NCBI RefSeq assembly: GCF_017115025.1
Contig: NZ_JABXKM010000136.1
Span: 1 to 64,000 of the forward strand
Reading direction: 5' to 3'
Length of the DNA: 64,000 nucleotides
From: Nostoc sp. NOS(2021)
GTDB taxonomy: Bacteria; Cyanobacteriota; Cyanobacteriia; Cyanobacteriales; Nostocaceae
The notes under the pieces were generated by a model that was not told the origin of the DNA, did not search any database, and worked only from the letters and a program-made list of their open reading frames with translations. Position numbers and translations under genes: made by a program. Numbering within the stretch: the first letter of the stretch is position 1; each line of letters starts with the position of its first letter. Shown piece by piece: positions 10,387-30,278 of the stretch.

Positions 10387-12000
10387 TTAAAAATCGAAGG
10401 TTGTGCGAATAACACCCACATACTGGGTATCATTTCTGCTGTCGTTTTCCGGGTTGAGAATCACCCAAAAACCAGGAGTCACTGAGATGTTGTCATTTAG
10501 GCGATAACGATAGAATGCTTCGATATGGTAAGCGTTGTCTCGGTCTTGACGGACATCACTGTTAGAGACACGCGGCGGTATACCAAAGAGAATTCCCGGC
10601 AGGTTGCCCCTACCCCCCACATCGGGAAACGACATACCAATCGCCCCAAACCAGACATTGGCATTATCACCACTGTTCACAAATAGAGAATTTGTTCCAC
10701 CCCTACCATTGGAAATATCACTCAAACCAGAGTTCTTGGCATTTGCCCAAATATATCCACCCCAAGCGTGGATTTGGAAATTCGGGGAGAAGCGATAGAA
10801 TCCCTGTGCGCCTACAATATCGTTGGAAGTAGCAATGTTGTTGCCAAAGGGAGCGTTTGACAGGGCGCTACCTGTCCCAGCTGCGAGATCGACTGCTCCA
10901 GCAGGGCTATAGCCATGAGAGTAGGCAACACCAATAGCTCCTTGCTTACCGTAATAGGCTAAGTGCGCCAGGGCGTTGTAGCCACCATCAAACAAGCCGT
11001 TGCTAGCCGATGGGACATTGGGACTGCTTGCTAAATAGCCCAAGGTGAGAACCAAGTCTTTGGTAATGTTCCAGTTAGCGGCACCACCGCCGCCACCTCG
11101 CCGGAATAAGGGACTGTATGACCCAAATAGTGAGGGAACCCCATTGCCGTCGTCAGCGATTGTGGCGGGAGTGACGGTGGTTGAAATGTCGGTGTAACCA
11201 ATGCCTGTGGGTCCAACAACGAAGTTAAGAGAATCACTGACTGGGAAGTAGTAACGGATGTGGGGAACAAAAAGTGTATCGTTGCTGTCATAATCGAAGT
11301 TGAGGCGTGTCATCCCTGTGCCTGTGGCTGCGGCAATTTGGCTTGCACCATTGGAATTCGCAAAGTTGCCAAATTCTAGGCGGACTCGCAACAAATCTTT
11401 GCCGGTGAAACTGCTCTCAAAGTTGAGACGACCCCGGTTTGCAAAGTAGATACCGGATTCATCGCGTTCGCCACCTACTCTATTACCAAAGGTATCACTA
11501 ATAGCGGTAATAATTTGAGCATTCAGCCTGGTAGTGGTGGAAAATTGCTGCTTCTCCAGCGTTGCTGTGTGTGCTTCTAGCGTATCCACCCGCCCACGCA
11601 GAGTTGTCAATTCTGCCGCAAACTCTGTTTGCAAATTTTGCAGCACTGCCAAATCTTCTTTCTTGACTAAATCGCTAGTACCCGCAGCAATTAATTCATT
11701 CACCCGGTCTAAGCAGGCATTTAAACCAGCTGCAAACTCATAACGACTCAAAGCACGGTTGCCGCGATAGGTTGCGTCAGGATAACCTGCAATACAGCCA
11801 TAACGTTCCACTAGCGATTGCAGTGCTTGGAATGCCCAATCACTCGGTTTAATATCGGAAAGCTGGGAAACAGAATTGACTTGTCCCTCCAAATTTCTAT
11901 TAGCATCTGCTGCATTAGAATCATCTTCTGGAGGTGCTGCCCAAACTGCTGGAATTGCCAAAAATAAGACAAAAAAACTATGAAAAAGAATTTTGATCAT
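10387..12000 (-). CDS. oprB: SLH-domain carbohydrate porin, OprB family
   Basis: 537 residues from the ATG at 12000, which opens a clean signal peptide (MIKILFHSFFVLFLAIPAVWA). The ORF extends to 12063, but that would add a polar stretch before the signal. Order: signal peptide; SLH domain (LSDIKPSDWAFQALQSL, GYPDATYRGNRALSRYEFAAGL); coiled coil (EFAAELTTLRGRVDTLEAHTATL); C-terminal beta-barrel of the OprB type ending in Phe (TTFDF). Cyanobacterial SLH porins sit in the outer membrane and let small solutes pass. It is the last gene of a minus-strand run with sugar transport genes, so a role in sugar or polyol entry is likely. In Nostoc an oprB gene also neighbours glcP and the frt transporter. 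Confidence 0.85.
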   Translation of the reverse strand: MIKILFHSFFVLFLAIPAVWAAPPEDDSNAADANRNLEGQVNSVSQLSDIKPSDWAFQALQSLVERYGCIAGYPDATYRGNRALSRYEFAAGLNACLDRVNELIAAGTSDLVKKEDLAVLQNLQTEFAAELTTLRGRVDTLEAHTATLEKQQFSTTTRLNAQIITAISDTFGNRVGGERDESGIYFANRGRLNFESSFTGKDLLRVRLEFGNFANSNGASQIAAATGTGMTRLNFDYDSNDTLFVPHIRYYFPVSDSLNFVVGPTGIGYTDISTTVTPATIADDGNGVPSLFGSYSPLFRRGGGGGAANWNITKDLVLTLGYLASSPNVPSASNGLFDGGYNALAHLAYYGKQGAIGVAYSHGYSPAGAVDLAAGTGSALSNAPFGNNIATSNDIVGAQGFYRFSPNFQIHAWGGYIWANAKNSGLSDISNGRGGTNSLFVNSGDNANVWFGAIGMSFPDVGGRGNLPGILFGIPPRVSNSDVRQDRDNAYHIEAFYRYRLNDNISVTPGFWVILNPENDSRNDTQYVGVIRTTFDF

Positions 12001-12083
12001 TGACTTATTACTTGAAAATGGTTGAATTCTGATTTTGTAACTAAAGAGATTAGACTCGAACAAAAGCTTCGAGATTATGAGCC

Positions 12084-12272: not shown

Positions 12273-13319
12273 TTAAAGTAACGCTATGACTTTTTGCTCA
12301 TTGCTGCTTTTAGTCGCCGCTTCTATAATTCTCATTACATTAATTCCGTCTTCGGCGGTAACAGCAATTGGCTGATTATCAACAATTGATTTGTACACTG
12401 CATCGTAATAACCTAAATAACTGCCCTGTGAACTTTTTACTTTTTCCCGAATTACTTTTGTGTCTTTTTGTGTATGAAGCAAGCCATATTCACTTTCCGG
12501 CTCTGTATACCAATCAAGTGTGTTAGGCTTCATACCCGCCACTAAATACTCTTCTTGTTTATCGGCTCTGCTTTTGAGAAAAGAACCTTTAGTGCCATGT
12601 ATGATATAGGCAGGCGCAGGCTCACGCACAAGGAAACTTGCTTTTAATTTGACGCGCAGTTTGTCGTAGTATAATATCAACTCAAAATTATCATCTACCT
12701 GCGATCGCAGCCTAGTTAGGCGGATGTCTGCAAAAATAGCATCAGGCATTCCAAATAAATGCAAAGCTTGGTCTATTAAGTGCGGCCCTAAATTGTTTAA
12801 TGTTCCTGCCCCCGGACTTGGAACTTCTACGTGTTGTTTATGGCTGAGGGTTGGTTTATATTTTTGAAATTGAAATTCTGCTTCAACTATATCACCTAAT
12901 AAGCCTTCTTGGACAATTTTTTTGACTGTTTTAAAATCACTATCCCACCTCCGGTTTTGATATACAGATAATTTTTTCCCCTGTTTTTGTGCCAATTCTT
13001 TCAGTTTTTCGGCTTCTGCTACCGTTGTGGTAAATGCTTTTTCTACCACTACATGTTTATCTGCAAGTAATGCCTGTTTAGTATAATCGTAATGAGTATA
13101 TGTGGGTGTATTTACTACCACCAAGATTACTTGCTCATCTGCTAGTAATGCTTCCAAAGAAGGATAGCTTTTTACATCAGGATAATCTTCCTGTATGAGC
13201 TTTTTACTTCTTTCCCAAGAACCGGCTAATTTAAATCCGGGATGCAAATCAATAAACGGCGCATGAAATACCATGCCGGACAAACCAGAAGAACAAAGAG
13301 CCGTATTGATAGTTTCCAT
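12273..13319 (-). CDS. Gfo/Idh/MocA oxidoreductase, scyllo-inositol dehydrogenase-like
   Basis: 348 residues. N-terminal Rossmann domain (GLSGMVFHAPFIDLHPGF; VVVNTPTYTHYDYTKQAL), the EK motif in HVVVEKAF, SVYQNRRWDSDF, GTLNNLGPHLIDQALHLFGMP, and a C-terminal ITAEDGIN-type motif (VTAEDGINVMRIIEAA). The layout and these motifs match the NADP-dependent scyllo-inositol dehydrogenases IolW/YvaA and YdgJ as I know them, which convert scyllo-inositol and scyllo-inosose. Where those have a conserved Asp before the catalytic His (DLxxH), this one has Asn (NNLGPH). Its place between the porin and sugar transporters, and near an inositol oxygenase, fits inositol metabolism, but the substrate is inferred. 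Confidence 0.75.
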   Translation of the reverse strand: METINTALCSSGLSGMVFHAPFIDLHPGFKLAGSWERSKKLIQEDYPDVKSYPSLEALLADEQVILVVVNTPTYTHYDYTKQALLADKHVVVEKAFTTTVAEAEKLKELAQKQGKKLSVYQNRRWDSDFKTVKKIVQEGLLGDIVEAEFQFQKYKPTLSHKQHVEVPSPGAGTLNNLGPHLIDQALHLFGMPDAIFADIRLTRLRSQVDDNFELILYYDKLRVKLKASFLVREPAPAYIIHGTKGSFLKSRADKQEEYLVAGMKPNTLDWYTEPESEYGLLHTQKDTKVIREKVKSSQGSYLGYYDAVYKSIVDNQPIAVTAEDGINVMRIIEAATKSSNEQKVIALL

Positions 13320-13754: not shown

Positions 13755-15155
13755 TTACATGTCTTCTAACTCAATTCCTTTGGTTTCTTTAATAAAAAAG
13801 AGAATGAAAAAGAACGAGGTAGCCGCCGCAATTGTATAGAGTCCATAGGCAGAACCTAGACCGAAATATTGCAGTATGGGAGGAAATGTTGTGGAAATCA
13901 CGAAATTCGCAACCCATTGGATGGCAGCAGCAACTGAAAGTGCAGCTGCTCGAATTTTGTTATTAAACATTTCTCCCAACAGCACCCAAACCACTGGCCC
14001 CCAGGAGAAACCGAAGCAAAATACATAGAGGTTGGCTGCAATGAGAGCTACAGTACCTACGCTTCCGGTGAGATTGGGGTTCCCAGTAGCATCAAGGGGA
14101 GCATTGCCAAAAAGATAAGCCATCGTCCCCAAGGTCAAGGTCATGCCAATCGACCCTACTATCAGTAAAGGCTTGCGACCAAATTTATCTACGAAGGCGA
14201 TCGCAATCAGTGTTGTAATAATATTTACGGCTCCTGTAATCACCGTGATTGTTAGGGAATCTTTTTCGGAAAACCCGACTGCCCGCCACAAAACGCTGCT
14301 GTAGTAAAAGATTACATTAATTCCAACAAATTGCTGTAATACAGATAAGCCTATTCCTATCCAAACAATGGGGAGGAGTCCGCCACTTCTACCCAACAGG
14401 TCAGAAAAGCTAGGCTGGCGTTCTTGAAGCACTGTCTGCCGAATTTCTTCAATTTTTGGCAGCACGTCACCCCCCAAAATCTTGGTCAGAACGTTAGCAG
14501 CTTCTGGCTCGCGTCCTTTGGCAACTAAGTAACGGGGGGATTCAGGAATTGTAAAAGCCACCATCCCGTAGAATACCGCTGGCGGGACTGCTGTCCAAAA
14601 CATCCAGCGCCAGGCTGCAACCCCAAACAAAAATGGCGAGTCTGCTGAACCTGCTGACACAGCAATAAAGTAGTCGGTCAATAAGGCGACGAAAATTCCC
14701 ACGACAATCGCTAATTGTTGCAGAGATCCTAACCTTCCCCGCAAATGGGTGGGAGAACATTCGGCAATGTAAGCTGGGGCGATGACGCTAGCAACGCCGA
14801 TTCCAATCCCACCCAATACTCGCCAAAAGATAAAATCCCAGATAGTGAAGGCAAGCCCAGAGCCAATGGCACTGATAGTAAATAACACCGAAGCGACCAC
14901 CATTGCTTTGACTCGACCATAACGGTCTGCAATTTGTCCGGCAAAGAAGGCTCCTACCGCAGAACCCAGCAACGCTAGGGAGACTGCCAGCCCTGTTAGC
15001 CAACTACTGATGTTAAAAGCTTTTGCTATAGATAAAACCGCGCCGTTGATAACTGCGGTGTCAAAACCGAATAAAAACCCGCCGAGTGCCGCAGCACCTG
15101 CAATCAAAATGACATAAAACGTGTTGGATTTACGACGAATAGTAGTGGAAGACAT
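13755..15155 (-). CDS. glcP: MFS sugar porter, GlcP-like
   Basis: 466 residues, twelve predicted membrane helices. Sugar-porter signatures: GGFLFGFDTAVINGAV in helix 1, RYGRVKAMV, R-G-G after helix 4 (GGIGIGVASVIAPAYIAE), PESPRYLVAKGR after helix 6, QQFVGINVIFYYS in helix 7 and KFGRKPLL between helices 8 and 9. Members move hexoses, pentoses or myo-inositol with protons. Position between frtC-like and oprB-like genes matches the glcP glucose permease of symbiotic Nostoc, which is why I use that name. An inositol role (IolT belongs to the same family) cannot be excluded. Confidence 0.8.
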   Translation of the reverse strand: MSSTTIRRKSNTFYVILIAGAAALGGFLFGFDTAVINGAVLSIAKAFNISSWLTGLAVSLALLGSAVGAFFAGQIADRYGRVKAMVVASVLFTISAIGSGLAFTIWDFIFWRVLGGIGIGVASVIAPAYIAECSPTHLRGRLGSLQQLAIVVGIFVALLTDYFIAVSAGSADSPFLFGVAAWRWMFWTAVPPAVFYGMVAFTIPESPRYLVAKGREPEAANVLTKILGGDVLPKIEEIRQTVLQERQPSFSDLLGRSGGLLPIVWIGIGLSVLQQFVGINVIFYYSSVLWRAVGFSEKDSLTITVITGAVNIITTLIAIAFVDKFGRKPLLIVGSIGMTLTLGTMAYLFGNAPLDATGNPNLTGSVGTVALIAANLYVFCFGFSWGPVVWVLLGEMFNNKIRAAALSVAAAIQWVANFVISTTFPPILQYFGLGSAYGLYTIAAATSFFFILFFIKETKGIELEDM

Positions 15156-15298: not shown

Positions 15299-16297
15299 TC
15301 AACGTCTGGAACGTCTGCGTAACCGATCAATCATTACCGCCAAAATAATTACTAGTCCTTTGACGACTAGTTGCCAGAAGTAAGAGAGGTTCAACAAGGT
15401 CAAACCATTGTTGAGAATAGCAATGATCAATGCACCTAGAAGGGTGCCGCCAATGGTGCCAATACCGCCTGTAAAGCTGGTTCCACCAAGAATAACAGCA
15501 GCGATCGCATCTAGTTCATAACCCTGACCTAATATGCCACTAGCACTATAGAGACGGCTAGCACTCATGATTCCGGCTAAACCTGCCAGTAATCCACTAA
15601 TACCATAGACGAATAGCAACACCTGATTAACTTTAATCCCAGTTAATCTTGCTGCCCGCTCGTTACCACCAACGGCATATATCTGCACTCCTAAAACAGT
15701 TTGTCGCAGCACAAACCAGCTAGCGATTACGGTCAATAGGGCAATGATTACTAGCCACGGTAGCGGGCCGACATAACTATTACCCACCCAAGCAAAATCG
15801 ATGTCCCGGTTAATCAGCGTTGTACCCTTGGCAACCAAAAAGGCTACACCCCGTAAGGCAGTCAGTGAACCCAAGGTGACAATAAAAGGTGGCACATCCA
15901 AGAAGGTGATGAGAGCGCCGTTGAGTAAGCCCAAAAATAATCCTGCAAGTAAGGCAGCAGGCACAGCTGCCCAACTTAAAGCCGGCAGTAGCGATACCAA
16001 CAACGCAACCACGGCAGAGACAGCTAACATTGACCCAACTGAAAGGTCAATACCTCCGGTGAGAATTACAAAGGTCATTCCGGTCGCCAGCACAATATTG
16101 ATTGATGCCTGACGCAAGATGTTAACGATGTTACCACCGGTGAGGAAGTTGGGAGAAAGAAATGCAAATAAGATGCAGATAATTACTAGGATTGGCAGAA
16201 TACCCGCAACTTCCAGGAGAGTGCTAATTGATTTGCGGTTGCGGGATACGGGATTGTTGGCTAATTTATTGGTAGGTGGCCTGACTGTCTGACTCAT
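15299..16297 (-). CDS. frtC: CUT2 sugar ABC transporter permease
   Basis: 332 residues with about ten hydrophobic segments; RbsC-family marks include [31 protein letters not shown] and [18 protein letters not shown]. It forms the membrane channel of a ribose/fructose/inositol-class importer. Its ATG lies within the last codons of the ATPase gene (4-base overlap), so translation is coupled. The order binding proteins, ATPase, permease on one strand matches frtABC. The name is given on family and gene order; substrate not proven. Confidence 0.85.
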
Positions 16298-17850
16298 GAT
16301 GCTAATACCTCCGATGCTCCAGTTGCATAGTGCATAATCTTTTCTTGGGTAATTTCTTTACCAAGGCTGCCATCCAGTTCGCCTACCAGCTGTCCTTCTC
16401 GCATCACTAAGACGCGATCGCTCATGCCGACAATCTCCGATAGTTCGCTGGAAACCATTAAAATAGCAACACCTTGCGCTGCTAATTCGCTCATAATTCG
16501 GTAAATTTCGCTTTTGGCACCAATATCTACGCCGCGTGTCGGCTCATCTAACATCAGGACTCTGGGTTTAATGGCTAACCAACGTGCTAGCAGTAGCTTC
16601 TGCTGATTACCACCAGAAAGATCGAGCGCTCTAATTTCCAAATTGGCTAGGCGGATATTGAAGTTTTCCACCGCGTCTGTTGACAGCCGATTCACTGAAG
16701 CCCAGTTAACAATTCCAACTTTGGCATCCTGCTTGAGTGTGTTGATGGCAATATTTTTGCGGGCGCTCATCTCCAGAAATAAACCTTGATCTTTGCGGTC
16801 TTCTGGGACGTAGCCAATTCCGGCAGCAATGGCATCACTGGGCGTATTAATTTCCAGTTTTTTGCCATTCAAAAATACTTCACCACTGGCCTTGCGGTCA
16901 GCACCAAAAATCAGCCGCGATAGTTCTGTGCGTCCTGCACCAACCAGCCCTGCTAAACCGAGAATTTCTCCAGCATGAAGTTCAAAACTAGTCGGCTCAA
17001 TCTTCTTGCGGGCGTCGCTCATATTTCTGACTGACAGCACGACTGGGCCAGGATTCATTTGCCGTTGATGTTCATAAAAGTCTTGCATGGAGCGACCGAC
17101 CATCATCTGCACCAATCGCTGTGGAGAAATTTCACTGCGTGTGAGACTGCCAATATATTGACCATCACGCAGCACGCTAATCCGGTCAGCTAAGGCATAG
17201 ATTTCTTCCATGCGATGGCTGATGTAAATAATGGCAATGCCATCACTCCGCAGTTTGCGAATTACCTCAAACAAATGCTCACTCTCGCGGTCAGATAGGG
17301 CTGCTGTTGGCTCATCCATCACCAAAACGCGGCTTTTGTCCTTCAGCGCTCGCGCAATTTCCACTTGCTGCTGTTCGGCGATCGACAAGGTACCAACTAT
17401 AGTCTGCGCGGTAAAATTGGCTCCAAGGCTTTCCAGCACTTCTTCTGCTTCCAGTTGCATAGCTTTGCGGTCTAAAAACTGACCTCGCCGCAACTCGCTA
17501 CCCATAAACATATTTTCGGTAACGGTTAAATTAGGTGCAACATTCAGTTCTTGATAAATGAGATTAATACCCGATTTGCGTGCTGTCCCCGGATCGGTAA
17601 TTTTCAAGGTTTGACCATTGATGCGAATTTCTCCTTCATCGGCAATGTAAGCCCCAGCCAGGATTTTCATCAATGTGCTTTTACCTGCTCCGTTTTCACC
17701 CATGAGGGCGTGAACTTCTCCCGGATAAATCGTGAGATTAACATTTTGGAGCGCAGATACACCATGAAATCGTTTCGTAATCCCTTGCATTTCTAACACC
17801 GGGGTGGTAGTTGGTGCATCAGTAAATGAAGTTTCAATAGTTGTTGTCAT
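16294..17850 (-). CDS. frtB: CUT2 sugar ABC transporter ATPase, duplicated
   Basis: 518 residues from the ATG at 17850. An AGGAG sits 7 bases upstream of it, while the in-frame ATG at 17856 would be too close. Two ABC modules: the first with [24 protein letters not shown] and [11 protein letters not shown]; the second with [10 protein letters not shown] (degenerate Walker A), [15 protein letters not shown] and [15 protein letters not shown]. This is the usual RbsA layout, with one weak and one strong site. It drives import with the permease that overlaps its 3' end. A separate gap of about 430 bases with a hairpin lies between it and the binding-protein gene. Confidence 0.88.
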
Positions 17851-18022
17851 GGACATCTCCTGTAAAAAAAATTTAAAATTCGCAATTGTGAGTTAGAAGT
17901 TAACAAACTCATACTTAATCGCAAAATCATGTTTTAAAAGCTGACTACTAGTTTGAAAATAGGGAGTGAGGAAGAGATATTTTCATGCTTCGTTGTTAAG
18001 GTTAGTTCCTAGAGACTGCTGT

Positions 18023-18284: not shown

Positions 18285-19310
18285 TTACCAGCCTTTTTCT
18301 GTGCTGACGTTATCTTTTGTGATCAACTTAACTGGAATCAAAATGGTAGAATTGCTAGGCTTTTTACCATTTAAGATGTCGTTGCCAACCTGAACTGCTT
18401 TTTCGGCCATACCTCGCGGATTTTGAGTGGCAGTCGCCGCATATAAACCATCTTTATTTGCGATCGCAGTGATTGCTTCTGGCGCACCATCAACCCCGAC
18501 AATAAAGAAATCTTTACGTTGTGCTTGGTTAGCTGCTAGTTCTGCGCCAACTCCACTCGGATCATTGATGGCAAAAACCGCATCAATTTTCGGAAAGGTT
18601 GTGAGCAAATCAGTCATAACTCTGAGTCCTCCATCCCGACTACCCTCTGCATTCTGGTTTTTAGAGAGGATTTTGATATCGGGATATTTAGACAATACAT
18701 TCTCACAGCCACTAACTCGCTGAATCACCGAGTCCACTGGCGGCCCGTTAACTATTACAACATTGCCTTTGCCTTTGAGGCGGTCAGCAATATATTTGCA
18801 ACTAACTTCTCCAGCTTGGACATTATTAGTAGTAATGGTGGCATCCACACCTCCTTCAGCACCTGTATCTACCGCAATGACAATTCTACCTGCAAGTTTC
18901 GCTTTTTCAATTGCTGGCTTAATGCCACTTTTATCAGCAGCATTTACGATAATGATATCAGTATTGGAAGCAGTAAAATTTTCAATTTGATTGGCTTGTT
19001 GGTTGAGGTCATAGGCACTGGAAACTACGCTAACGTTGACATCCTTACCGCCAATTTTCTTCGCCTCTGCCTCAGTTGCTTGCCCCATGAGGACGAAGAA
19101 GGGATTACTTAAATCACCAACGGTAAAGGCAACTGATCGTAATTTTGTATTCCCAGTGGCAGTTTTACTCTCTGCACTTATATTGGTAGCCGATTTTGTA
19201 TCAGTGTTAGTAGCAGTGTTGCGATCGGGAGAACTATTTGTACAGCCCACAAGACTACCACTGATGATACCTAATAGGCTAGCTGCGATCGTAATCTTTT
19301 TCACATTCAT
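18285..19310 (-). CDS. frtA: CUT2 sugar-binding lipoprotein, copy 1
   Basis: 341 residues from the ATG at 19310. AGGAGATAT precedes it exactly, and an upstream ATG at 19328 lacks a site. Lipoprotein signal with lipobox near SLVGC. Periplasmic-binding-protein type 1 fold of the RbsB class: GDLSNPFFVLMGQ, NQIENFTASNTDIIIVNAAD, VDTGAEGG, INDPSGVGAELA, IVGVDGAPEAI. It delivers the sugar to the permease. It is about 70-75 percent alike by eye to the second copy 200 bases upstream, so the pair comes from duplication. The ligand could be fructose (frt locus) or inositol; both belong to this class. Confidence 0.85.
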   Translation of the reverse strand: MNVKKITIAASLLGIISGSLVGCTNSSPDRNTATNTDTKSATNISAESKTATGNTKLRSVAFTVGDLSNPFFVLMGQATEAEAKKIGGKDVNVSVVSSAYDLNQQANQIENFTASNTDIIIVNAADKSGIKPAIEKAKLAGRIVIAVDTGAEGGVDATITTNNVQAGEVSCKYIADRLKGKGNVVIVNGPPVDSVIQRVSGCENVLSKYPDIKILSKNQNAEGSRDGGLRVMTDLLTTFPKIDAVFAINDPSGVGAELAANQAQRKDFFIVGVDGAPEAITAIANKDGLYAATATQNPRGMAEKAVQVGNDILNGKKPSNSTILIPVKLITKDNVSTEKGW

Positions 19311-19429
19311 ATATCTCCTAAAACTCATTCTTACTTACACCAAATTTGGAACCGATGTATTGTTTAAAAAACAGGGTCAAGTATTGTAACTCTCCTGTAT
19401 CAAGCCTTTTTCTGTGTGTCCTAATTACG

Positions 19430-19512
19430 AATTACGTTAGCGAGTCCGCGTACTCTGTAAGAGTTGCAAGCTACGCTTTTAGCGTCTCGTAGAGAGCGTG
19501 ATTACGAATTAC
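19430..19512. repeat. Interspersed repeat fragment
   Basis: CTACGCTTTTAGCGTCTCGTAGAGAGCG and flanking ATTACGAATTACG motifs between the two binding-protein genes. Similar fragments recur near 35.1, 45.65 and 61.7 kb. Confidence 0.55.
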
Positions 19513-19521
19513 GAATTAGTA

Positions 19522-20526
19522 TTACCAGCCTTTATAGCTGCTGAGATTCTCTCTAGTAACCAAGTTGACTGGAATCAGAATGTTGGGTGACTCAGGTTTT
19601 TTACCCTGGATGATATCGTTGCCAATCTGAACCGCTTTTTCGGCCATCCCTGCGGGATTTTGAGCAGCAGTTGCAGCAAATACACCATCTTTATCTTCCA
19701 TTGCTTTGGTTGCATCTGGCGATCCGTCAACCCCAACAATAAAAAATTCTTTACGTCTTGCTTGTCTAGCTGCTAAATCTGCGCCCACACCGCTTTGATC
19801 GTTAGTGGCAAAAACGGCATCAATTTTGGGAAAGGTTGTGAGCAAATCGCTCATGACTCTTAGTCCTCCATCCCTAGTCCCTTCGGCGTTTTGGTCTTTA
19901 GAGATGAGTTTGATATTCGGATATTTGGACAATGACTTCTCACAGCCACCCACTCGCTGATTGATTGAATCCATCGGAGTACCGTTGAGGATGACTACAC
20001 TACCTTGACCTTTGATGCGATCGGCAATATATTGGCAAGCAATCTCTCCAGCTTGCGTATTGTTGGAGCTAATCATCGCATCCACATCTGCATCAACGGC
20101 TGAATCTAATGCAATGACAACCCTACCTGCAAGCCTTGCTTGATCAATAACTGGTTTAACTCCTTTTTTGTCAACAGCGCTGAGAATAATTAGATCAGTA
20201 TTCGCAGCCGTGAAATTTTCGATTTGGTTGGTTTGTTGGTTCAGGTCAAAGGCACTAGAAACCGCATTAACTCTGATATTCCCGATTTTCTTGGCTTCTG
20301 TCTCAGCCCCCTTCTGCACTGCATTATAGAAGGGATTGCCCAAGTCACCCAAAGCAACGCCGATTGTTTGCAATTTTCTATTTGGAGTACTAAGACTCTC
20401 TGCACTTATATTGGTAGCAGTGTTAGTAGTATTAGTAGCAGTGTTGTGATTTTGACCGCCATTTGTGCAACCAACAACCGCGAAACCTAATATGCCAACT
20501 ATGAGCGCAATTCTGTTCATATTCAT
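19522..20526 (-). CDS. frtA: CUT2 sugar-binding lipoprotein, copy 2
   Basis: 334 residues (second start ATG at 20520 possible). Lipobox FAVVGC near residue 20. Same fold and motifs as copy 1: ALGDLGNPFYNAVQKG, NQIENFTAANTDLIILSAVD, ATNDQSGVGADLA, IVGVDGSPDAT, VTRENLSSYKGW end. First gene of the minus-strand transport run. Two tandem binding proteins serving one ATPase/permease pair is known for the frt locus of Nostoc and could widen ligand range or allow different expression levels. Confidence 0.85.
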   Translation of the reverse strand: MNMNRIALIVGILGFAVVGCTNGGQNHNTATNTTNTATNISAESLSTPNRKLQTIGVALGDLGNPFYNAVQKGAETEAKKIGNIRVNAVSSAFDLNQQTNQIENFTAANTDLIILSAVDKKGVKPVIDQARLAGRVVIALDSAVDADVDAMISSNNTQAGEIACQYIADRIKGQGSVVILNGTPMDSINQRVGGCEKSLSKYPNIKLISKDQNAEGTRDGGLRVMSDLLTTFPKIDAVFATNDQSGVGADLAARQARRKEFFIVGVDGSPDATKAMEDKDGVFAATAAQNPAGMAEKAVQIGNDIIQGKKPESPNILIPVNLVTRENLSSYKGW

Positions 20527-21613: not shown

Positions 21614-22510
21614 TTAGAATTTTAAGGTTATGGGTAAATATTTAGCCACTAAATCTTCATAGTAAGGCTTTAATTTTTGCCAATCTGGAGGATTAGGATT
21701 CTTTGAATACAAATCGTAGGGATTGAATAACTTCACCCATTTAAACATTTCTTTATCGTGTTTATCCATCAAATGTTCGTAAGCATTTTCGCGATGTTGA
21801 GGATAAAAGGAGTGATAGCGGAGGATGTACAATGCAGATTCGGGCAAATAGTTTTTCATCATGTAATATACATACTCATCATGTCCCCATGACATGTGTA
21901 CATTACTTAAGCCACAATTCGGCTCGTAAACACCATATACGGAGTTATATATAGGGTTATTGTAATCAGGGTTTTCTTTGAAAAATTCCGAGAAAACAAT
22001 TTTATCAGAAAATGCACAACCCACAGGATAGGTATCGCCTACTGTAGCCCATTGGGGTTCACCAAATAAGCAAAGTACCTTCCCCATATCGTGAAACAAG
22101 CCAGTAAGTACCATCCAGTCTGGGTGCCCATCAGCGCGAATGGCTTCTGATGTTTGCAATAGGTGCTGTAACTGATCTAAGTCTGTATCAGGATCTGAAT
22201 CATCAACCAATTGATTCAAAAATTCCAATGCATCCCAGACAGACATTTCTTTCTTATCTAACTTCAGAAAGTGTTCTTTTTTATCTAATACAAAATCATA
22301 CGTTTGATTGATATGATTTAACCGATAAAACTCTTTCACCGTATCTCTAATAGTCGTTTCGTAATTCCTATACTCTTCGGTGGTTTTACCTTCTTTAACT
22401 ATGCTGTCTGGATCGGGATAGCGATTAAGTAAGTCTTTTTCCCATTCTTCTAGCGAATGTAAAGGATTGTTTTGAGCTTGGTCGATGACATTATTTAGAG
22501 TTTGAGACAT
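21614..22510 (-). CDS. Inositol oxygenase (MIOX)
   Basis: 298 residues, the normal size. MIOX is a di-iron enzyme that uses O2 to cleave myo-inositol to D-glucuronate. All six iron ligands can be placed: His116 (QHLLQTSEAIR), His140-Asp141 (GLFHDMGK), His210 (MSWGHDEYVYYM), His233 (LRYHSFYPQHR) and Asp266 (FNPYDLYSK). Substrate-loop motifs such as PVGCAFSDKIVF and GVYEPNCGL are also present. Bacterial copies are uncommon. Upstream lie two copies of the LacI-type operator also found at the gluconokinase/lacI promoter. It supplies glucuronate for the UxaC encoded 3 kb away. Confidence 0.93.
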   Translation of the reverse strand: MSQTLNNVIDQAQNNPLHSLEEWEKDLLNRYPDPDSIVKEGKTTEEYRNYETTIRDTVKEFYRLNHINQTYDFVLDKKEHFLKLDKKEMSVWDALEFLNQLVDDSDPDTDLDQLQHLLQTSEAIRADGHPDWMVLTGLFHDMGKVLCLFGEPQWATVGDTYPVGCAFSDKIVFSEFFKENPDYNNPIYNSVYGVYEPNCGLSNVHMSWGHDEYVYYMMKNYLPESALYILRYHSFYPQHRENAYEHLMDKHDKEMFKWVKLFNPYDLYSKNPNPPDWQKLKPYYEDLVAKYLPITLKF

Positions 22511-22564: not shown

Positions 22565-22619
22565 ATGTACAGGTGTGCAAGTACTGTATTGAACTTATTT
22601 TTGCACACGTGTGCAAAAA
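22565..22619. promoter_or_regulatory. Two LacI-type operators upstream of inositol oxygenase
   Basis: 22598-22619 is a perfect 22-base palindrome with core TTGCACACGTGTGCAA (22601-22616). 22565-22580 (ATGTACAGGTGTGCAA) matches the core at 13 of 16 positions. The same 16-base core is at 24174-24189 in the gluconokinase/lacI promoter. CpG-centred palindromes are typical LacI-family sites. Confidence 0.7.
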
Positions 22620-23520: not shown

Positions 23521-24045
23521 CTAAATTCCCAAAGCCATTCTAATGTTTTGGACAATTACCTGGGGTGACTGTGCAACATCCATAGATATGCTATCCAATG
23601 GTTCTTCAAGAGTATAAAACTGACTGTTGAGGAGTTTTTCGCTCATGTAATGATCGCGACGCTCTTGCAGCCGCATTTGAATCAACTCATAAGACCCTTT
23701 GAGGTAAACTAGCTTGATGCGTTCGCCCTTGGCGTTGGCGGAGCCATTGCTATCCAATACCAGAAATTGCCGATAGCTATCTTTTAGAGCCGAACACGCC
23801 AGCACCACATTTTTATTTTCTTGCAGCCAGTGTTTAATAGCTGTTTGCAAATCTTGCAACCAAGGCATCCTGTCAGCTTCACTCAGAGGGATACCGCGCC
23901 GCATTTTCTCAACATTCTCTGGCGAGTGGAAAGCATCAGCGTCGCTAAACTCCCATTCTAAGGAGTCTGCTAGCAGTTTTCCGATGGTAGTTTTGCCAGA
24001 ACCTGATACACCCATTACGATAATAATCATTGACTGCTTAATCAT
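23521..24045 (-). CDS. gntK: Gluconokinase
   Basis: 174 residues. P-loop GVSGSGKTT, SDADAFHSPENVEKMRRG, DRMPWLQDL, ACSALKDSYRQFL and VYLKGSYELIQMRLQERRDHYM are all standard for GntK, which makes 6-phosphogluconate from gluconate and ATP. Start may be 24045 or the ATG at 24030. A short insert (SNGSANAKGE) before KLVYLKG is encoded by a GGCGTTGGCGGAGCC-type repeat motif. Divergent from the lacI gene across a shared operator, so both are probably controlled together. In this locus it would feed gluconate from the uronate branch into the oxidative pentose phosphate or Entner-Doudoroff pathway. Confidence 0.9.
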   Translation of the reverse strand: MIKQSMIIIVMGVSGSGKTTIGKLLADSLEWEFSDADAFHSPENVEKMRRGIPLSEADRMPWLQDLQTAIKHWLQENKNVVLACSALKDSYRQFLVLDSNGSANAKGERIKLVYLKGSYELIQMRLQERRDHYMSEKLLNSQFYTLEEPLDSISMDVAQSPQVIVQNIRMALGI

Positions 24046-24137: not shown

Positions 24138-24198
24138 TTGACAAATAACGATTATTTTCTATAATACATATAATTGCACACGTGTGCAATTATATGTA
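24138..24198 (+). promoter_or_regulatory. Sigma70-type promoter with overlapping 34-base palindromic operator
   Basis: TTGACA at 24138-24143 and TATAAT at 24160-24165, 16 bases apart. From 24165 to 24198 the DNA is a perfect 34-base palindrome centred on CACACGTGTG (core TTGCACACGTGTGCAA at 24174-24189). A repressor bound here would cover the -10 edge and start site of lacI, and lie in the divergent gntK control region. Confidence 0.75.
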
Positions 24199-24215: not shown

Positions 24216-25256
24216 ATGAATAAACGAAGAATTTCAATTGAAGATATTGCTCGCAGAGCAGGCGTTTCTCATTCCACAGTTTCACGCGCTTTGCGAGATA
24301 ACGCTCTAATTAGCCCGAAAGTGCGAGAAGAAATTAAGCGACTGGCGCAGGAGATGAGCTATGTGCCGAATGCTATTGCTCAAAGCTTGCAAAATAAACG
24401 TACTAATACCATTGGTGTAGTAGTAACTTCAATCGCAGATCCCTTTTTCGCTGAGGTAGTAGAGGGAATCGAGAAGATCGCCAGACCCGCAGGCTTGAGT
24501 GTTTTGTTGAGTGCTTCACACCGAGATTTTGAGCAGGAAATAGCAGCTATTGATACTTTTCATCGCCGGAGAGTAGACGGGATCTTAGTAGCCGACTCAC
24601 GAATTAGTAAACAGCATATCAAACAACTAACGCAAATTGCTGTGCCCACAGTTCTGATTAATAGCCAGACCGAAGATCAATCCGAAATATTTCACTCAGT
24701 GGCAATAGACGATCGCTTAGGTGCTAGATTAGCCGTAGAGCATCTCATAAGTCTGGGACACACCGCTATTGGTTATCTGGGTGTAAGCGATCGCAGTAGG
24801 TCGAACCAGCAGCGCCTAGAAGGATATCGAATGGCCCTTGCTGAAGCTGGCATACCACAAAATACTGATTGGGTTGCAATTAGTGATGACTATGATACCA
24901 GAACAAGCGATGTTGCCACCGGACAACAGATGCTATCTAAACTATTGACTGCTGAGGTGACAGGCATCTTTTGTTACAACGATATGGTTGCGGTTGGCGC
25001 TCTGCTAGTCTGCCAAGAACTAGGTATTTTAGTACCGCGAAATTTAAGTCTCGTCGGATTTGATGGTATTGCTTTGGGCTGTTACGTTACGCCGGCACTC
25101 ACGACAGTCAGCCAGCCAATGTTAGAAATTGGTGGCTATGCCATGCAAATGTTACTCGATTTATTAGAAGAAAAAACTGTAGAAAACCGCGTTTTATGTC
25201 CTTTTCTAGTACAGCGTGGAAGTAGTGCAGCATTACAGCAATTTTCAGGTATTTAG
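24216..25256 (+). CDS. LacI-family transcriptional regulator
   Basis: 346 residues. N-terminal helix-turn-helix and hinge (ISIEDIARRAGVSHSTVSRALRDN; MSYVPNAIAQSLQ) and a periplasmic-binding-like effector domain (TIGVVVTSIADPFFAEVVEGIE, DGILVADSR, VAIDDRLGARLAVEHLISLGH, FCYNDMVAVGAL, LVGFDGI). It most likely binds the CACACGTGTG palindromes in its own promoter, at gntK and upstream of inositol oxygenase. The frt locus also has a LacI-type regulator (FrtR), and this may be its counterpart. Effector unknown; a sugar acid or inositol is a reasonable guess. uxaC follows after 55 bases on the same strand. Confidence 0.88.
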   Translation: MNKRRISIEDIARRAGVSHSTVSRALRDNALISPKVREEIKRLAQEMSYVPNAIAQSLQNKRTNTIGVVVTSIADPFFAEVVEGIEKIARPAGLSVLLSASHRDFEQEIAAIDTFHRRRVDGILVADSRISKQHIKQLTQIAVPTVLINSQTEDQSEIFHSVAIDDRLGARLAVEHLISLGHTAIGYLGVSDRSRSNQQRLEGYRMALAEAGIPQNTDWVAISDDYDTRTSDVATGQQMLSKLLTAEVTGIFCYNDMVAVGALLVCQELGILVPRNLSLVGFDGIALGCYVTPALTTVSQPMLEIGGYAMQMLLDLLEEKTVENRVLCPFLVQRGSSAALQQFSGI

Positions 25257-25311: not shown

Positions 25312-26733
25312 ATGTTAACCAAAAAACCGAGCTTATCTCCCGATCGCTGTTTTTCTCCAGAACCAGTTCAAAGACGACTAGCCCATGAATTTTTTGACAG
25401 TATATCTGCGCTACCTCTAGTCTGCCCACACGGCCACGTAGATCCAGCCTTGTTAGCTAATCCAGCAGCCCGTTTTGGTTCACCGACCGAATTACTGATT
25501 ATCCCTGACCACTACCTTTTGCGTATGCTCTATAGTCGGGGCATACCTCTGCAAGCTTTGGGCATACCTACTAGTGATGGTTCACCAGCAGAAACTGACC
25601 ACCGCAAAATCTGGCAATTGTTCGCCGAACATTTTTATCTATTCCAGGGTACTCCGTCCGGGTTGTGGCTCAAAGACGAACTAACTAACGTCTTTGGCGT
25701 AGATGAACCTTTAAACTCTCGCAATGCTGGACATATCTATGATTACCTGGAAGGTCTGTTAGCTTTGCCTGAGTTCTCCCCCCGTGCTTTATTCAAACGC
25801 TTTCACATCGAAGTGCTTTGTACTACCGATGCAGCCAGTGATACCCTAGAGAATCAGCGATCGCTCCACGAAGAAGGTTTTACTCAAATCAGACCAACTT
25901 TTCGACCAGATGCAGTAGTTAACCTGGATGCTCCTGGTTGGCGCGAAAATCTTGCTAAATTGGAAAGCACTATCGGTAGAGAAATTAATACTTACGCTGC
26001 TTTTGTGCAAGCTTTAGAAGAACGTCGAGCTTTCTTTAAAAAAATGGGCGCGACAGCTACCGATCAAGGTGCAGCTACACCTTATACCACACGCCTTTCT
26101 GACCAAGAAGCAGAAGCTATCTTTGCTAGAGCATTAACCGGCAAGCTGAATCCAAGTGATGTAGAACATTTTACTGGTCATATGTTCATGGAAATGGCGC
26201 GGATGAGTGTGGAAGATGGCTTAGTGATGCAAATGCATTGTGGTGTTATGCGTAACCATAACCCGGCTTTATTTGAGAGATTTGGATCTGATAAAGGTGC
26301 TGATATTCCGCTAAAAATAGAGTGGACTCAAAATTTGCGCCCATTGTTGTCAGCCTACGGTAATGATCAACGCTTCCACTTAATTATTTTTGGCATGGAT
26401 GAAAGCACCCTGAGCCGAGAGATGGCTCCGCTAGCCGGTCATTATCCCACCATACTGCTCGGGCCGCCTTGGTGGTTTCACGACAGCGTTAATGGCATGG
26501 AGCGCTACTTCAATCAGGTAATGGAAACTGCTGGACTTTATAATACTGCCGGGTTTAATGATGATACTCGCGCTTTCGTTTCTATTCCGGCTCGTCACAA
26601 TATCTGGCGGCGAGTAGCTTGTAATTGGTTAGCTGGATTGGTAACACGTGGATTGGTTGAGGAAGAGGAAGGGTATGATATGGCCCGCGCTTTGGCTTAC
26701 GACCTCGCTAAGGTTGCTTACAAATTGGATTAA
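25312..26733 (+). CDS. uxaC: Glucuronate isomerase
   Basis: 473 residues, the family's usual length. Amidohydrolase-like barrel with the metal-binding HGH motif in CPHGHVDP near residue 40, followed by HYLLRMLYSRGIP, CTTDAASDTLENQ, MQMHCGVMRNHN and PARHNIWRRVACNWLAGLV. UxaC interconverts D-glucuronate and D-fructuronate (also galacturonate and tagaturonate). It sits 55 bases after the lacI gene and ahead of the SDR and LarA-like genes on the same strand, but 344 bases of repeats separate it from the SDR gene. Confidence 0.9.
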   Translation: MLTKKPSLSPDRCFSPEPVQRRLAHEFFDSISALPLVCPHGHVDPALLANPAARFGSPTELLIIPDHYLLRMLYSRGIPLQALGIPTSDGSPAETDHRKIWQLFAEHFYLFQGTPSGLWLKDELTNVFGVDEPLNSRNAGHIYDYLEGLLALPEFSPRALFKRFHIEVLCTTDAASDTLENQRSLHEEGFTQIRPTFRPDAVVNLDAPGWRENLAKLESTIGREINTYAAFVQALEERRAFFKKMGATATDQGAATPYTTRLSDQEAEAIFARALTGKLNPSDVEHFTGHMFMEMARMSVEDGLVMQMHCGVMRNHNPALFERFGSDKGADIPLKIEWTQNLRPLLSAYGNDQRFHLIIFGMDESTLSREMAPLAGHYPTILLGPPWWFHDSVNGMERYFNQVMETAGLYNTAGFNDDTRAFVSIPARHNIWRRVACNWLAGLVTRGLVEEEEGYDMARALAYDLAKVAYKLD

Positions 26734-26799
26734 TACCAATTTTCCCAAATCAAGCTATTAGGAACTAGGGCGTGTTTTCAAACTACTCGTTTAGCCTCC

Positions 26800-27016
26800 T
26801 AACTTTATAGATCCCCCTAAATCCCCCTTAAAAAGGGGGACTTTAAGAGACTTGGAGCAAGCCTTTTTAAGGGGGGGGTTGGGAGAATCTAAGACTTTGA
26901 AAAGAGTCTCTAGCCCTTTCAAGGTAACTCGTAAAATCTCTTTATTTTCTCTCTGCGTTTCTGTCGTTATCAGTTATTTAACCACAGAGACGCAGAGAAC
27001 ACAGAGATAAGAGGTT
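26800..27016. repeat. Palindromic and CACAGAGACGCAGAG interspersed repeats
   Basis: 26811-26885 has CCCCCTTAAAAAGGGGG stems and a second CCTTTTTAAGGGGGGGG arm. 26981-27014 has the ACAGAGACGCAGAGAACACAGAG repeat. Fills the gap between uxaC and the SDR gene. Confidence 0.65.
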
Positions 27017-27077
27017 ATGGAGGAATTTGACTTTTTTAATTACGAATTACGAATTGGAATAAGCAGGGTAATCATTG

Positions 27078-27914
27078 ATGCCAGACTTGATTTTAAATAA
27101 ACTTTTTAGCCTAAAAGAGCAGGTAGCAGTAGTCACAGGCGGTTCTGGTGTGCTTGGTGGGGCTATGGCAAAGGGTTTGGCCCTTGCTGGAGCGCGAGTC
27201 GTCGTTTTGGGTCGTAATGAAGCACGGGCGGGTGCGGTAGTGGCTGAAATTACCGCTAACGGTGGAGAAAGCATAGCTGTACTGGCAGATGTCGGCGATC
27301 GCTCCCAATTAGAAATAGCCAGGGATGTTATTATACAGCGTTGGGGTCAGATAGACATCCTGATAAACATGGCTGGTGGTAATATTCCTGCTGCCACAAT
27401 TACTGCTGACGCTACTATTTTTGATATGCCACACGCAGCTTTTGAGGAAGTAGTTAGCCTCAACTTACTCGGTACTTTACTGCCTAGCCAAGTTTTTGGT
27501 CAAGCAATGGTCGAAAGAAATCAGCCCCACGGTTGTATTGTGAATATTTCTTCTATGTCTGCCATTCGGGTGATTAGCCGCGTGGTTGGCTACTCAGCCG
27601 CTAAAGCGGGGATAGATAACTTTACTCGCTGGCTAGCGGTAGAACTCGCCCAAAAGTATGGTGATGGACTACGAGTAAATGCGATCGCGCCAGGTTTTTT
27701 TATTGGAGAGCAAAATCGAGATTTACTGTTAAATCCAGATGGAAGCTTGACTATACGCGGGCAAAAAATCATTGAGCATACCCCCGCCGGACGTTTCGGA
27801 AAACCGGATGAATTACTCAGCACCTTAATTTGGTTATGCAGTTCTGGTTCTAGTTTCGTCAACGGAGTAGTCGTACCTGTAGACGGTGGGTTTAGTATCT
27901 ACAGCGGAGTTTAA
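27078..27914 (+). CDS. uxuB: SDR-type D-mannonate oxidoreductase (fructuronate reductase)
   Basis: 278 residues from the ATG at 27078; an in-frame TTG just before it is a poorer start. Short-chain dehydrogenase: TGGSGVLGGA cofactor loop at about 20, NMAGG (NAG motif), catalytic Ser in NISSMSA and YSAAK (Tyr/Lys). The end HTPAGRFGKPDEL and VPVDGGFSIYSGV is typical of the Bacillus YjmF/UxuB group, which reduces D-fructuronate to D-mannonate with NAD(P)H. It lies between uxaC and the LarA-like gene, with only 2 bases to the latter. Confidence 0.85.
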   Translation: MPDLILNKLFSLKEQVAVVTGGSGVLGGAMAKGLALAGARVVVLGRNEARAGAVVAEITANGGESIAVLADVGDRSQLEIARDVIIQRWGQIDILINMAGGNIPAATITADATIFDMPHAAFEEVVSLNLLGTLLPSQVFGQAMVERNQPHGCIVNISSMSAIRVISRVVGYSAAKAGIDNFTRWLAVELAQKYGDGLRVNAIAPGFFIGEQNRDLLLNPDGSLTIRGQKIIEHTPAGRFGKPDELLSTLIWLCSSGSSFVNGVVVPVDGGFSIYSGV

Positions 27915-27916
27915 AA

Positions 27917-29176
27917 ATGTATTCATTAGCCGTAACTAACGGGACACTTTCAGATGAGCAAGTTTCCGATCTAGTTCATCAAGCTTTAGCAGACCCTAAG
28001 TTGGATGGACAGCGCATCCTAGTATTAATTCCAGATAGTACCCGCACTGCCCCCATACCTCAAATGTTTCGATTGCTTCATAATGAGTTGAGTAAAAGGG
28101 TAGCGGCTCTGGATTTTTTGATCGCTCTGGGTACACATAATCCCATGAGTGAAGAACAAATCAATCACTTGGTAGGGGTAACACCGGAAGAGCGAGAAAC
28201 AACTTTTAAAAAAGTTCGCATCTTTAACCACCTTTGGAATCAGCCGGATACCTTTATTTCTTGTGGAGTAATTTCAGCAGATGAAATAGCAGAGATCAGC
28301 CGGGGAATGCTACATCAAGCAGTTGAAGTACGTGTTAACAAGCTGGTAACAGAGTACGATCTAATAATGATTTGCGGCCCGGTATTTCCCCACGAAGTTG
28401 TCGGTTTCTCTGGTGGAAATAAATACTTTTTTCCCGGCATTGGTGGTCAGGAGGTAATTAATCTCTCACACTGGTTAGGTGCTTTAATCACCTGTTACGA
28501 AATTATTGGTACACCGGGAATAACACCAGTTCGACGCTTGATTAACCGAGCCGCTAACTTGATTTCTACCCCGAAACTTTGTTTGGCGATGGTGGTTGCA
28601 CCAAAAACTAATCAGCTAGCTGGACTATATATAGATAAACCAGAGTCAGCCTGGGAAGATGCTGCAAAATTATCGGCCAAACTGCATATTAAATATGTAG
28701 ATCAGCCCTTTAAACAAGTGCTTTCAGTAATGCCCCAAATGTATGACGACATTTGGACAGCAGCTAAAGGAATGTACAAGCTAGAGCCAGTAGTAGCTGA
28801 CGCAGGTGAAGTAATTATATATGCCCCTCACATTACTGAGTTTAGCTATACACACGGCGAAATCCTAGCCCAAATTGGCTATCATGTGCGCGATTACTTC
28901 CTCAAACAATGGGATAAATTCCAAGCCTATCCCGGTGGAGTGCTGGCTCATAGTACTCACTTAAAAGGTATGGGTAGTTTTGATCCTATACAAGGGGAAC
29001 AAGCGCGGATTCGCGTCACTTTAGCTACTGGTATTTCTGCTGAACGCTGTGCTGCTCATAACTTGAACTATCGTGACCCCGCTACCATTCGACCCACAGA
29101 ATGGGCTAACCATGAGGATGAAGGTATCTTGCTTGTGCCAAAGGCTGGCGAGATACTATACCGGATGAATTCTTAA
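27917..29176 (+). CDS. LarA-like nickel-pincer racemase/epimerase; candidate D-mannonate/D-gluconate 2-epimerase
   Basis: 419 residues. LarA-family residues can be placed with the right spacing: Asp40/Arg43 (PDSTRTAP), His74 (ALGTHNPMS), His159 (FPHEVVGFSGGNKYFFPG), Lys169 (the cofactor-attachment Lys) and His185 (NLSHWLGA). The 10 and 16 residue spacings equal those of lactate racemase His174-Lys184-His200. DDIWTAAKG near 277 matches the C-terminal active-site motif. The family uses a nickel-pincer nucleotide to invert C2 of alpha-hydroxy acids, and a gluconate 2-epimerase is a known member class. Mannonate and gluconate are C2 epimers, and the gene starts 2 bases after uxuB with gntK in the same regulon. 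Function is inferred. Confidence 0.8.
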   Translation: MYSLAVTNGTLSDEQVSDLVHQALADPKLDGQRILVLIPDSTRTAPIPQMFRLLHNELSKRVAALDFLIALGTHNPMSEEQINHLVGVTPEERETTFKKVRIFNHLWNQPDTFISCGVISADEIAEISRGMLHQAVEVRVNKLVTEYDLIMICGPVFPHEVVGFSGGNKYFFPGIGGQEVINLSHWLGALITCYEIIGTPGITPVRRLINRAANLISTPKLCLAMVVAPKTNQLAGLYIDKPESAWEDAAKLSAKLHIKYVDQPFKQVLSVMPQMYDDIWTAAKGMYKLEPVVADAGEVIIYAPHITEFSYTHGEILAQIGYHVRDYFLKQWDKFQAYPGGVLAHSTHLKGMGSFDPIQGEQARIRVTLATGISAERCAAHNLNYRDPATIRPTEWANHEDEGILLVPKAGEILYRMNS

Positions 29177-29282: not shown

Positions 29283-30278
29283 TCACTCTAAACCTTCTCG
29301 CGCACCATGAGCTAACAGTAACTCAACCATATCTTTGTTCCTCTGAGCAACAGCTAGATGAAGCGGACTTTCTCCCCTCAAACCTCGAACATTAACATCA
29401 GCACCATACGCAACAAGAACTCTGACAATCTCATCATTACCTGAGTGCTGAAAAGCACGCAACAGAGGTGTCCAACTTTCATTGTCTATTAAATTAACTT
29501 CTGCACCGTGATCTAAAAGAGACTCAGCTACACTTAGATCATGATGTCGGGCAGCTTCAAATAGTGGACTACTTTTTGATTCATCGAGGGCATTAACATT
29601 AGCCCCACAGTCCAACAAAAGTTCTGTGATATTTTGATGTCCAAGCTGGGTTGCCAAATGTAGAGGAGTTTTACCATGTTCACCAAGAGCGTTAACATCT
29701 GCACCATGATCTATTAGAAGCTCACAAATATCTAGGCAACCTGTAGCAGATGCACGATGTAGTGGGGAAACGTTTTTAGATTTCATCTTCTCATTAACGT
29801 TTGCTCCACAGTTTAGGAGAAGTTCAATAAGATTTTTATTTCTACCCATGATCGCTGCAATTAACCATGACTCTTCTTTGTTTAATCCTTTTACAAGGAA
29901 AGAATTAACATCTAAACCCGAATCTAGATAGTGCTTGACTAGTTCAATATCTCCAAGCATCACCGCGATCTCTGGCTGCATGACCGCACCACAGTCTAAC
30001 AGAAATTGAGCAATTTCCCGATGCTGATTCCAAGCTGCTAGGTATAAGGAAGTGCAACCATCTTTTGTTTCAGCATCGATCTGCGCTCCATTAGTAATCA
30101 GAAGTTCGACTACATCCCTATGTCCCTCGGAAGATGCCTTGTGTAAGGGTGTTTCACCCGAACCATCTACAACATCAACGCTTGCACCAGCAGCCACCAA
30201 CAATTCTACGATATCTTTATGTCCACGATAAGCAGCAATAAGTAGGGCTGAACAGGGTTTTCCTTCAGAGTAAAACAT
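29283..30278 (-). CDS. Ankyrin-repeat protein
   Basis: 331 residues made almost wholly of about ten ankyrin repeats (consensus pieces GETPLHKASSEGHRDVVELLITNGA, GKTPLHLATQLGHQNITELLLDCGANVNAL, GESPLHLAVAQRNKDMVELLLAHGA). The fold binds other proteins; no enzyme domain or signal peptide. The ATG at 30278 opens directly inside a partial first repeat, so the natural N-terminus could be short or 5' sequence may have been lost. The fourth to fifth repeats are degenerate (AVMLGDIELVKHYLDSG). No partner is evident nearby. Confidence 0.85.
   Translation of the reverse strand: MFYSEGKPCSALLIAAYRGHKDIVELLVAAGASVDVVDGSGETPLHKASSEGHRDVVELLITNGAQIDAETKDGCTSLYLAAWNQHREIAQFLLDCGAVMQPEIAVMLGDIELVKHYLDSGLDVNSFLVKGLNKEESWLIAAIMGRNKNLIELLLNCGANVNEKMKSKNVSPLHRASATGCLDICELLIDHGADVNALGEHGKTPLHLATQLGHQNITELLLDCGANVNALDESKSSPLFEAARHHDLSVAESLLDHGAEVNLIDNESWTPLLRAFQHSGNDEIVRVLVAYGADVNVRGLRGESPLHLAVAQRNKDMVELLLAHGAREGLE

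Follow-up and report, generated by a model that had tools for sequence, protein, structure and literature searches.

The window (the whole stretch of Nostoc DNA analysed, 64,000 nucleotides) comes from a genome of 7.62 Mb in 346 contigs that is 95.7% complete. Genes and features were assigned from profile matches, alignment and gene order, and those of the locus under study are given below in order of position.

10387..12063, minus strand: porin corresponding to orpB (NF033921, a model named iron uptake porin).
12273..13319, minus strand: Gfo/Idh-type oxidoreductase corresponding to mviM (best model at 278 bits against a cut-off of 330).
13755..15155, minus strand: MFS sugar porter corresponding to the published glucose permease gene (TIGR00879, 360.9 bits, cut-off 237.8).
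15299..17856, minus strand: sugar ABC transporter permease and ATPase corresponding to frtC and frtB, named by gene order.
18285..20526, minus strand: two sugar-binding proteins (18285-19328 and 19522-20526) corresponding to frtA1/frtA2, named by gene order.
21614..22510, minus strand: hrmE, myo-inositol oxygenase (MIOX), source of D-glucuronate (PF05153, 1.5e-109).
22601..22616, no strand: palindrome TTGCACACGTGTGCAA, putative HrmR operator in front of hrmE.
23521..24045, minus strand: hrmK, gluconokinase of the GntK/IdnK type (TIGR01313, 149.3 bits, cut-off 113.75).
24174..24189, no strand: palindrome TTGCACACGTGTGCAA, putative HrmR operator between hrmK and hrmR.
24216..25256, plus strand: hrmR, LacI-family repressor (profile matches).
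25312..26733, plus strand: hrmI, glucuronate isomerase UxaC (NF002794, 485.9 bits, cut-off 387; PF02614).
27078..27914, plus strand: hrmU, SDR-type D-mannonate oxidoreductase (fructuronate reductase; NF006132, 388.6 bits, cut-off 281); its start is the ATG at 27078, the open reading frame being listed from the TTG at 27075.
27917..29176, plus strand: hrmA, LarA-type NPN-dependent enzyme of 419 aa, predicted D-mannonate/D-gluconate 2-epimerase (GntE-like); profiles and alignment for the function, synteny for the name.

These genes correspond one for one, and in the same order, to the hrm locus of symbiotic Nostoc as set out in the legend of Fig. 6 of PMC5987646, which lists orpB, mviM, a glucose permease, frtA1A2BC, hrmE, hrmK, hrmR, hrmI, hrmU and hrmA. 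Because of this gene-for-gene match the last gene was named hrmA, a name that rests on synteny. The sequence-only reading had recognised neither the hrm locus nor hrmA. In strain 210A, which is named in the same paper, the gene order is identical and this protein likewise follows hrmU. The legend enters hrmA as unknown, whereas the present analysis gives it a family, a cofactor and a predicted reaction. The porin OrpB is described there as carbohydrate-selective. The ABC transporter was considered as an inositol importer and dropped, since the published locus assigns the transporter to fructose (PMC5987646).

The order hrmR, hrmI, hrmU, hrmA on one strand was found at 28 of 32 cyanobacterial loci; three of the other four are cut by a contig end and one, in Nostoc carneum NIES-2107, has hrmA alone. 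The open reading frame at 27917-29176 on the plus strand was recovered exactly as first read, beginning 2 bases past the stop codon of uxuB/hrmU (27912-27914), and this spacing recurs, as judged by tblastn ends, at 23 of the 29 cyanobacterial loci where both genes are present. The gap between hrmI and hrmU in the window (26734-27077, about 340 bases) is repeat-like, with opposing runs of C and G, and measures about 95 bases at one related locus (L010).

HrmA matches the Pfam family Lar_N with an E-value of 7.6e-23 (81.2 bits against a curated cut-off of 23.3), and among solved proteins it is closest to Thermotoga maritima GntE2 (PDB entry 4nar; 1.5e-62 over residues 12-417), the next one reaching only 1.1e-08 by sequence. 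Chance resemblance is excluded by the Lar_N and 4nar matches together. In an alignment of 23 proteins the six residues named by the sequence-only reading all fall on their LarA counterparts (Asp40 on D72, Arg43 on R75, His74 on H108, His159 on H174, Lys169 on K184 and His185 on H200), and Lys284 falls on K298. The seven catalytic and NPN residues and, as far as they were counted, the signature residues described below were invariant in all 31 near-full-length cyanobacterial copies, a set made up of the window copy and 30 of 38 related loci, leaving aside two truncated at contig ends and six belonging to other phyla. The dN/dS of the window copy against 12 other copies ranged from 0.056 to 0.114.

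The best NCBIfam model for HrmA is the group 18 putative hexonate epimerase NF052594, at 200.8 bits. As the cut-off of that model is 500, strict membership of group 18 was rejected; GntE2 itself scores 191.6 bits on it, similar to HrmA. The lactate and malate racemase models gave 66-92 bits against cut-offs of 460-500 (68.6 bits for lactate racemase NF033504, under its equivalog cut-off of 460), and identity with a lactate or malate racemase was rejected on these scores and on the different signature residues. The signature reported for groups 18-20 is Glu followed by Val or Ser after the second His, Trp in helix 11 and Ala or Val in helix 14 (PMC7583248). HrmA has E160-V161 in the loop and W280 in helix 11, and its V342-L343-A344-H345 aligns with V-A-A-H of GntE2, the choice of the helix-14 residue being our own reading of that paper.

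HrmA and GntE2 (LarAH20) share homology over their full length, the catalytic and NPN residues, the Glu after the second His, the helix-11 Trp and a C-terminal stretch A-H-x5-G-x-G-x-F-D-P. They differ in that identity is about 31%, and at possible specificity residues HrmA has Val for Ser after the loop Glu, Ala for Gly before the catalytic Lys (K284) and G341 where GntE2 has N348. A search with a predicted model of HrmA (mean pLDDT 75, below 50 around residues 161-178, 311-331 and 338-357, active-site loops among them) also returned 4nar as the best fold match, with an E-value of 8.1e-33 and a TM score of 0.77 for the predicted structure. Nostoc strains have proteins up to 95% identical to it, with 93% identity each in N. 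punctiforme NIES-2108 and strain 210A.

The placement in a LarA-family tree that the sequence-only reading had proposed as a check was carried out with 23 rows: the window protein, 21 of 58 extracted locus proteins and GntE2, GntE1 (group 19) being left out. The window clade (support 94/94), which holds members from Nostocales, Thermomicrobiales, Chloroflexota, Acidobacteria and Embleya, joins GntE2 and the group 18 proteins at 98/96, and the joined clade is separate both from lactate-racemase-type proteins and from a distinct cyanobacterial branch. The tree program warns that the long branch of GntE2 may mislead, and it also flags the weakly supported grouping of GntE2 with group 18 (87/70). 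By sequence, fold and tree HrmA sides with GntE2 and not with lactate or malate racemases. Group 18 shares with HrmA the E-V and W signature, but its true members (618.9 bits in Saccharobesus and 620.9 bits in Catenovulum on NF052594) branch off on their own, and one of these proteins carries a fused gluconokinase.

A separate cyanobacterial group of LarA-like proteins, 29-34% identical to HrmA, has His-Arg in place of His-Glu after the second catalytic His and occurs in three hosts of another family of the order (L077, L078 and L079, in G300, G200 and G358). The neighbours scanned, those of L077, include a membrane transporter and an NAD-dependent epimerase.

The genes for the NPN cofactor, whose absence the sequence-only reading had named as evidence against itself, are all present in the source genome on other contigs, with scores above cut-off for LarB (291.1 bits, cut-off 175), LarC (488 bits, cut-off 22.1) and LarE (320.9 bits, cut-off 150). 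Since many cyanobacteria are reported to carry LarBCE without LarA (PMC11796402), their presence is weak and non-specific evidence.

The sequence-only reading had also held that a LarA-like enzyme takes the place of the mannonate dehydratase branch and that UxuA and KdgA are lacking. UxuA bore this out, a profile search of the source genome with PF03786 giving 0 matches. For KdgA the absence is true of the window only, because an aldolase of the KdgA/Eda type (PF01081, 156.4 bits) sits on another contig. The genome's 3 matches to PF13378 (MR_MLE_C) yielded no recognisable enolase-superfamily mannonate dehydratase. Two of them exceed the PF13378 cut-off: an o-succinylbenzoate synthase (506.9 bits, over the cut-off of its own model) and a protein whose top-scoring model is racemase DgcA (237.3 bits, under the cut-off of 400). 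The third is weak, at 24.2 bits. Compared with the UxuA-KdgK-KdgA branch of glucuronate breakdown, the Nostoc locus thus has UxaC and a fructuronate reductase in common, and the genome differs in giving no UxuA match and in having its KdgA/Eda-type aldolase elsewhere. A predicted inositol oxygenase operon of Francisella is reported to carry the UxuA branch instead (PMC3479022).

A survey covered 388 genomes of this order, which had been taken from a larger group; the counts are not independent, because the carriers are close kin. UxuA was matched in 0 of the 388 by the PF03786 search, which found a match in 5 of 14 named genomes used as a positive control. hrmA is near full-length in 9 of the 388, and 1 fragment, 3 distant homologues and 2 weak matches bring the total to 15. 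UxaC is intact in the same 9 genomes and broken in a tenth. MIOX gave a strong match in 13 genomes (15 in all, including one split and one weak), 9 of which have both hrmI and hrmA and 4 of which have neither intact. Two of those four (G240 and G378) keep broken remnants of hrmI and hrmA with an intact hrmR; one of this pair has a broken hrmU, and no hrmU was found in its partner. The remaining two (G265 and G356) gave no match to hrmA or UxaC genome-wide, and the stretch of DNA retrieved from them lacks hrmR and hrmU. hrmI and hrmA are therefore retained or lost jointly, and hrmE and hrmK can stay alone. As these two persist in four genomes without intact hrmI, hrmU or hrmA, they must have some use that is independent of HrmA.

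At all four of these loci (L087, L088, L089 and L090) hrmE and hrmK lie beside sugar transporter genes. Intact hrmA away from hrmI and hrmU was seen in Nostoc carneum NIES-2107 (L045) and in G359 (L083 and L091), at a distance of about 23 kb in the latter. In L045 and L028 an open reading frame of 1749 or 1748 aa comes after hrmA.

Outside the cyanobacteria, some relatives also lie near uronate genes. A Thermomicrobiales locus (L037) has UxaC, UxuB and LarAH consecutively, and an Anaerolineae locus (L040) has UxaE, a mannonate oxidoreductase (UxuB) and LarAH, with an FGGY kinase 1.2 kb on whose best model is gluconokinase (223 bits, below its cut-off of 648.55). At L041 a mannonate oxidoreductase lies about 1 kb upstream of LarAH, and in Embleya UxaC and a LacI regulator lie a few kb from it. 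No uronate gene was found among the scanned neighbours at L039, L042 and L044. Several scanned open reading frames in the GC-rich loci L037, L039, L041, L042 and L074 matched no family, probably through the choice of spurious overlapping frames. On a plasmid of Saccharobesus litoralis (NZ_CP026605.1; L075, 5494-7263) a GntK-type gluconokinase (residues 3-157) is fused to a group 18 LarA-like protein (residues 171-581) near larB, a tagaturonate epimerase gene (UxaE) and gnd, and Catenovulum adriaticum has uxaC, gntK, a group 18 LarA-like gene, larC and larB. Both cases serve as analogies, because the proteins belong to group 18 and not to the HrmA clade. The fusion suggests that group 18, whose substrate had earlier only been guessed to be a hexonate, may also make gluconate.

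The putative regulon of the locus was defined by the palindrome. At up to 2 mismatches TTGCACACGTGTGCAA occurs in the source genome only between gntK and lacI and before the inositol oxygenase gene, so that gluconokinase is in the same putative regulon, as first read; a reversed control pattern gave no site, and a weaker site with 3 mismatches lies at 22565-22580. In relatives, a site with up to 2 mismatches was found within 300 bases of hrmE at all 21 loci tested and a site with up to 3 mismatches upstream of hrmR at all 29, and the best match upstream of hrmI and hrmU had at least 5 mismatches. The two positions agree with the promoters, those of hrmR and hrmE, at which HrmR is reported to act (PMC5987646), and HrmR may bind the palindrome.

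Family, residues, gene order, the palindrome, the UxuA non-match and the presence of LarBCE were computed directly. We infer the substrate and direction: the product of hrmA would be a GntE-like, NPN-dependent 2-epimerase, turning D-mannonate into D-gluconate and so completing a path from inositol to 6-phosphogluconate, with a probability of roughly 0.8. The kinship with GntE2, the LarBCE genes, the survey result for UxuA and the gene contexts favour the replacement of the mannonate dehydratase branch. A gluconate 2-epimerase class in the superfamily, to which the sequence-only reading had appealed, does exist, and HrmA's nearest solved relative belongs to it: GntE2 is reported active on D-mannonate, and GntE1, GntE2 and LarAH15 are reported to convert D-mannonate to D-gluconate. 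A branch from mannonate to gluconate had earlier been proposed for Thermotoga and was demonstrated in vitro with GntE2 (PMC7583248), and an oomycete enzyme is described likewise. Substrate does not strictly track family, since LarAH10, which is not GntE-like, is also reported to epimerise gluconate and mannonate.

In the proposed path HrmE would convert myo-inositol to glucuronate, HrmI glucuronate to fructuronate and HrmU fructuronate to D-mannonate. HrmA would then invert C2 to give D-gluconate, which HrmK would phosphorylate to 6-phosphogluconate for entry into the oxidative pentose phosphate pathway without a mannonate dehydratase. At the active site of HrmA, H74 and H159 would act as base and acid in turn, and K169 and H185 would hold the nickel-pincer cofactor, which would accept the hydride from C2 and deliver it back on the other face. 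TTGCACACGTGTGCAA would be the site by which HrmR represses both promoters. The uronate locus of Thermotoga, as reported, likewise holds a fructuronate reductase and a gluconate kinase. The Nostoc case differs in being cyanobacterial, in that inositol oxygenase would supply the uronate, and in its LacI-type regulator, a GntR-like one being cited for the Thermotoga regulon.

Gene content cannot tell the order of the last two steps, and both activities of a reversed order, in which mannonate is phosphorylated by HrmK before HrmA epimerises it, as 6-phosphomannonate, to 6-phosphogluconate, are reported in extracts of Lactobacillus suebicus, where the epimerase was unidentified. That order is unlikely: the relatives GntE1, GntE2 and LarAH15 are reported to use free D-mannonate, HrmK passes a gluconokinase model of the GntK/IdnK type, and the gluconokinase of E. 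coli is reported, through a citing paper, to be inactive on mannonate. About equally improbable is an enzyme that epimerises another hexonate or aldarate, such as glucarate/mannarate or altronate, mannonate not being its natural substrate. The three differences from GntE2 at possible specificity residues would fit it, as would the case of GntE1, an enzyme with a uronate-linked context whose KM for mannonate is high (table value 120) and which is suspected of acting on another acid (PMC7583248). Against it, hrmA follows a mannonate oxidoreductase gene by 2 bases and shares a putative regulon with gluconokinase, and the steps before and after the gap belong to enzymes of mannonate and gluconate. 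Membership of the LarA superfamily would by itself also allow an ordinary racemase of lactate, malate or another short hydroxy acid that follows uxuB by chance; this is very improbable given the low racemase model scores, the E-V loop where lactate racemase has an aromatic residue, the helix-11 Trp where LarA has Tyr, and the joint retention or loss of hrmA with hrmI.

A further explanation concerns the purpose of the pathway and is compatible with a mannonate/gluconate epimerase rather than opposed to it: the hrm enzymes would serve to make a signal metabolite and not catabolism, with gluconate or mannonate as the hormogonium inhibitor or the HrmR ligand. The published hypothesis, as far as it is set out in PMC5987646, is that the locus makes an inhibitor metabolite and that this metabolite lifts repression by HrmR, and the putative operator is restricted to the hrm locus. 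A simple catabolic or NADPH-supplying role would serve equally, and the gluconokinase in the putative regulon argues that gluconate gets consumed; we regard a signalling purpose as possible, at somewhat less than even odds. If the epimerase assignment is correct, glucuronate, fructuronate, mannonate and gluconate become the candidates for the supposed hrm metabolite or HrmR ligand, and the route from pathway to hormogonium repression could run through a metabolite itself, its action on HrmR or NADPH supply.

hrmA is reported to participate in halting hormogonium formation, and its expression to respond to host-derived repressing factors and flavonoid-type compounds; it has been described as without homologues. 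No LarA or epimerase assignment for hrmA was found in the literature searched on hrmA, hormogonia and cyanobacteria with racemases. The enzyme class is thus already known, and HrmA as that enzyme appears to be new within the literature searched. The HrmA reaction would join the hrm enzymes into one inositol-to-6-phosphogluconate pathway and give a gene described as lacking homologues a metabolic role that can be tested. It would also make HrmA a LarA-type NPN client in a phylum that mostly makes NPN for unknown ends, a recognisable client enzyme where many cyanobacteria are reported to make the cofactor without LarA, and it predicts that hrm-dependent control needs nickel and larBCE. We infer the link to hormogonium repression, which is put forward tentatively: HrmA may set the level of a sugar acid sensed by HrmR and the flow of carbon to the oxidative pentose phosphate pathway, and thereby decide when symbiotic Nostoc ceases to form infective hormogonia inside the plant or lichen.

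Just downstream of hrmA, on the opposite strand, lies an ankyrin-repeat protein gene (29283-30278, minus strand) that among the 38 related loci is listed only in L018. Further along the window, at 33793-34968 on the minus strand, a protein resembles a CBASS phospholipase model (162.8 bits, below the cut-off of 200).
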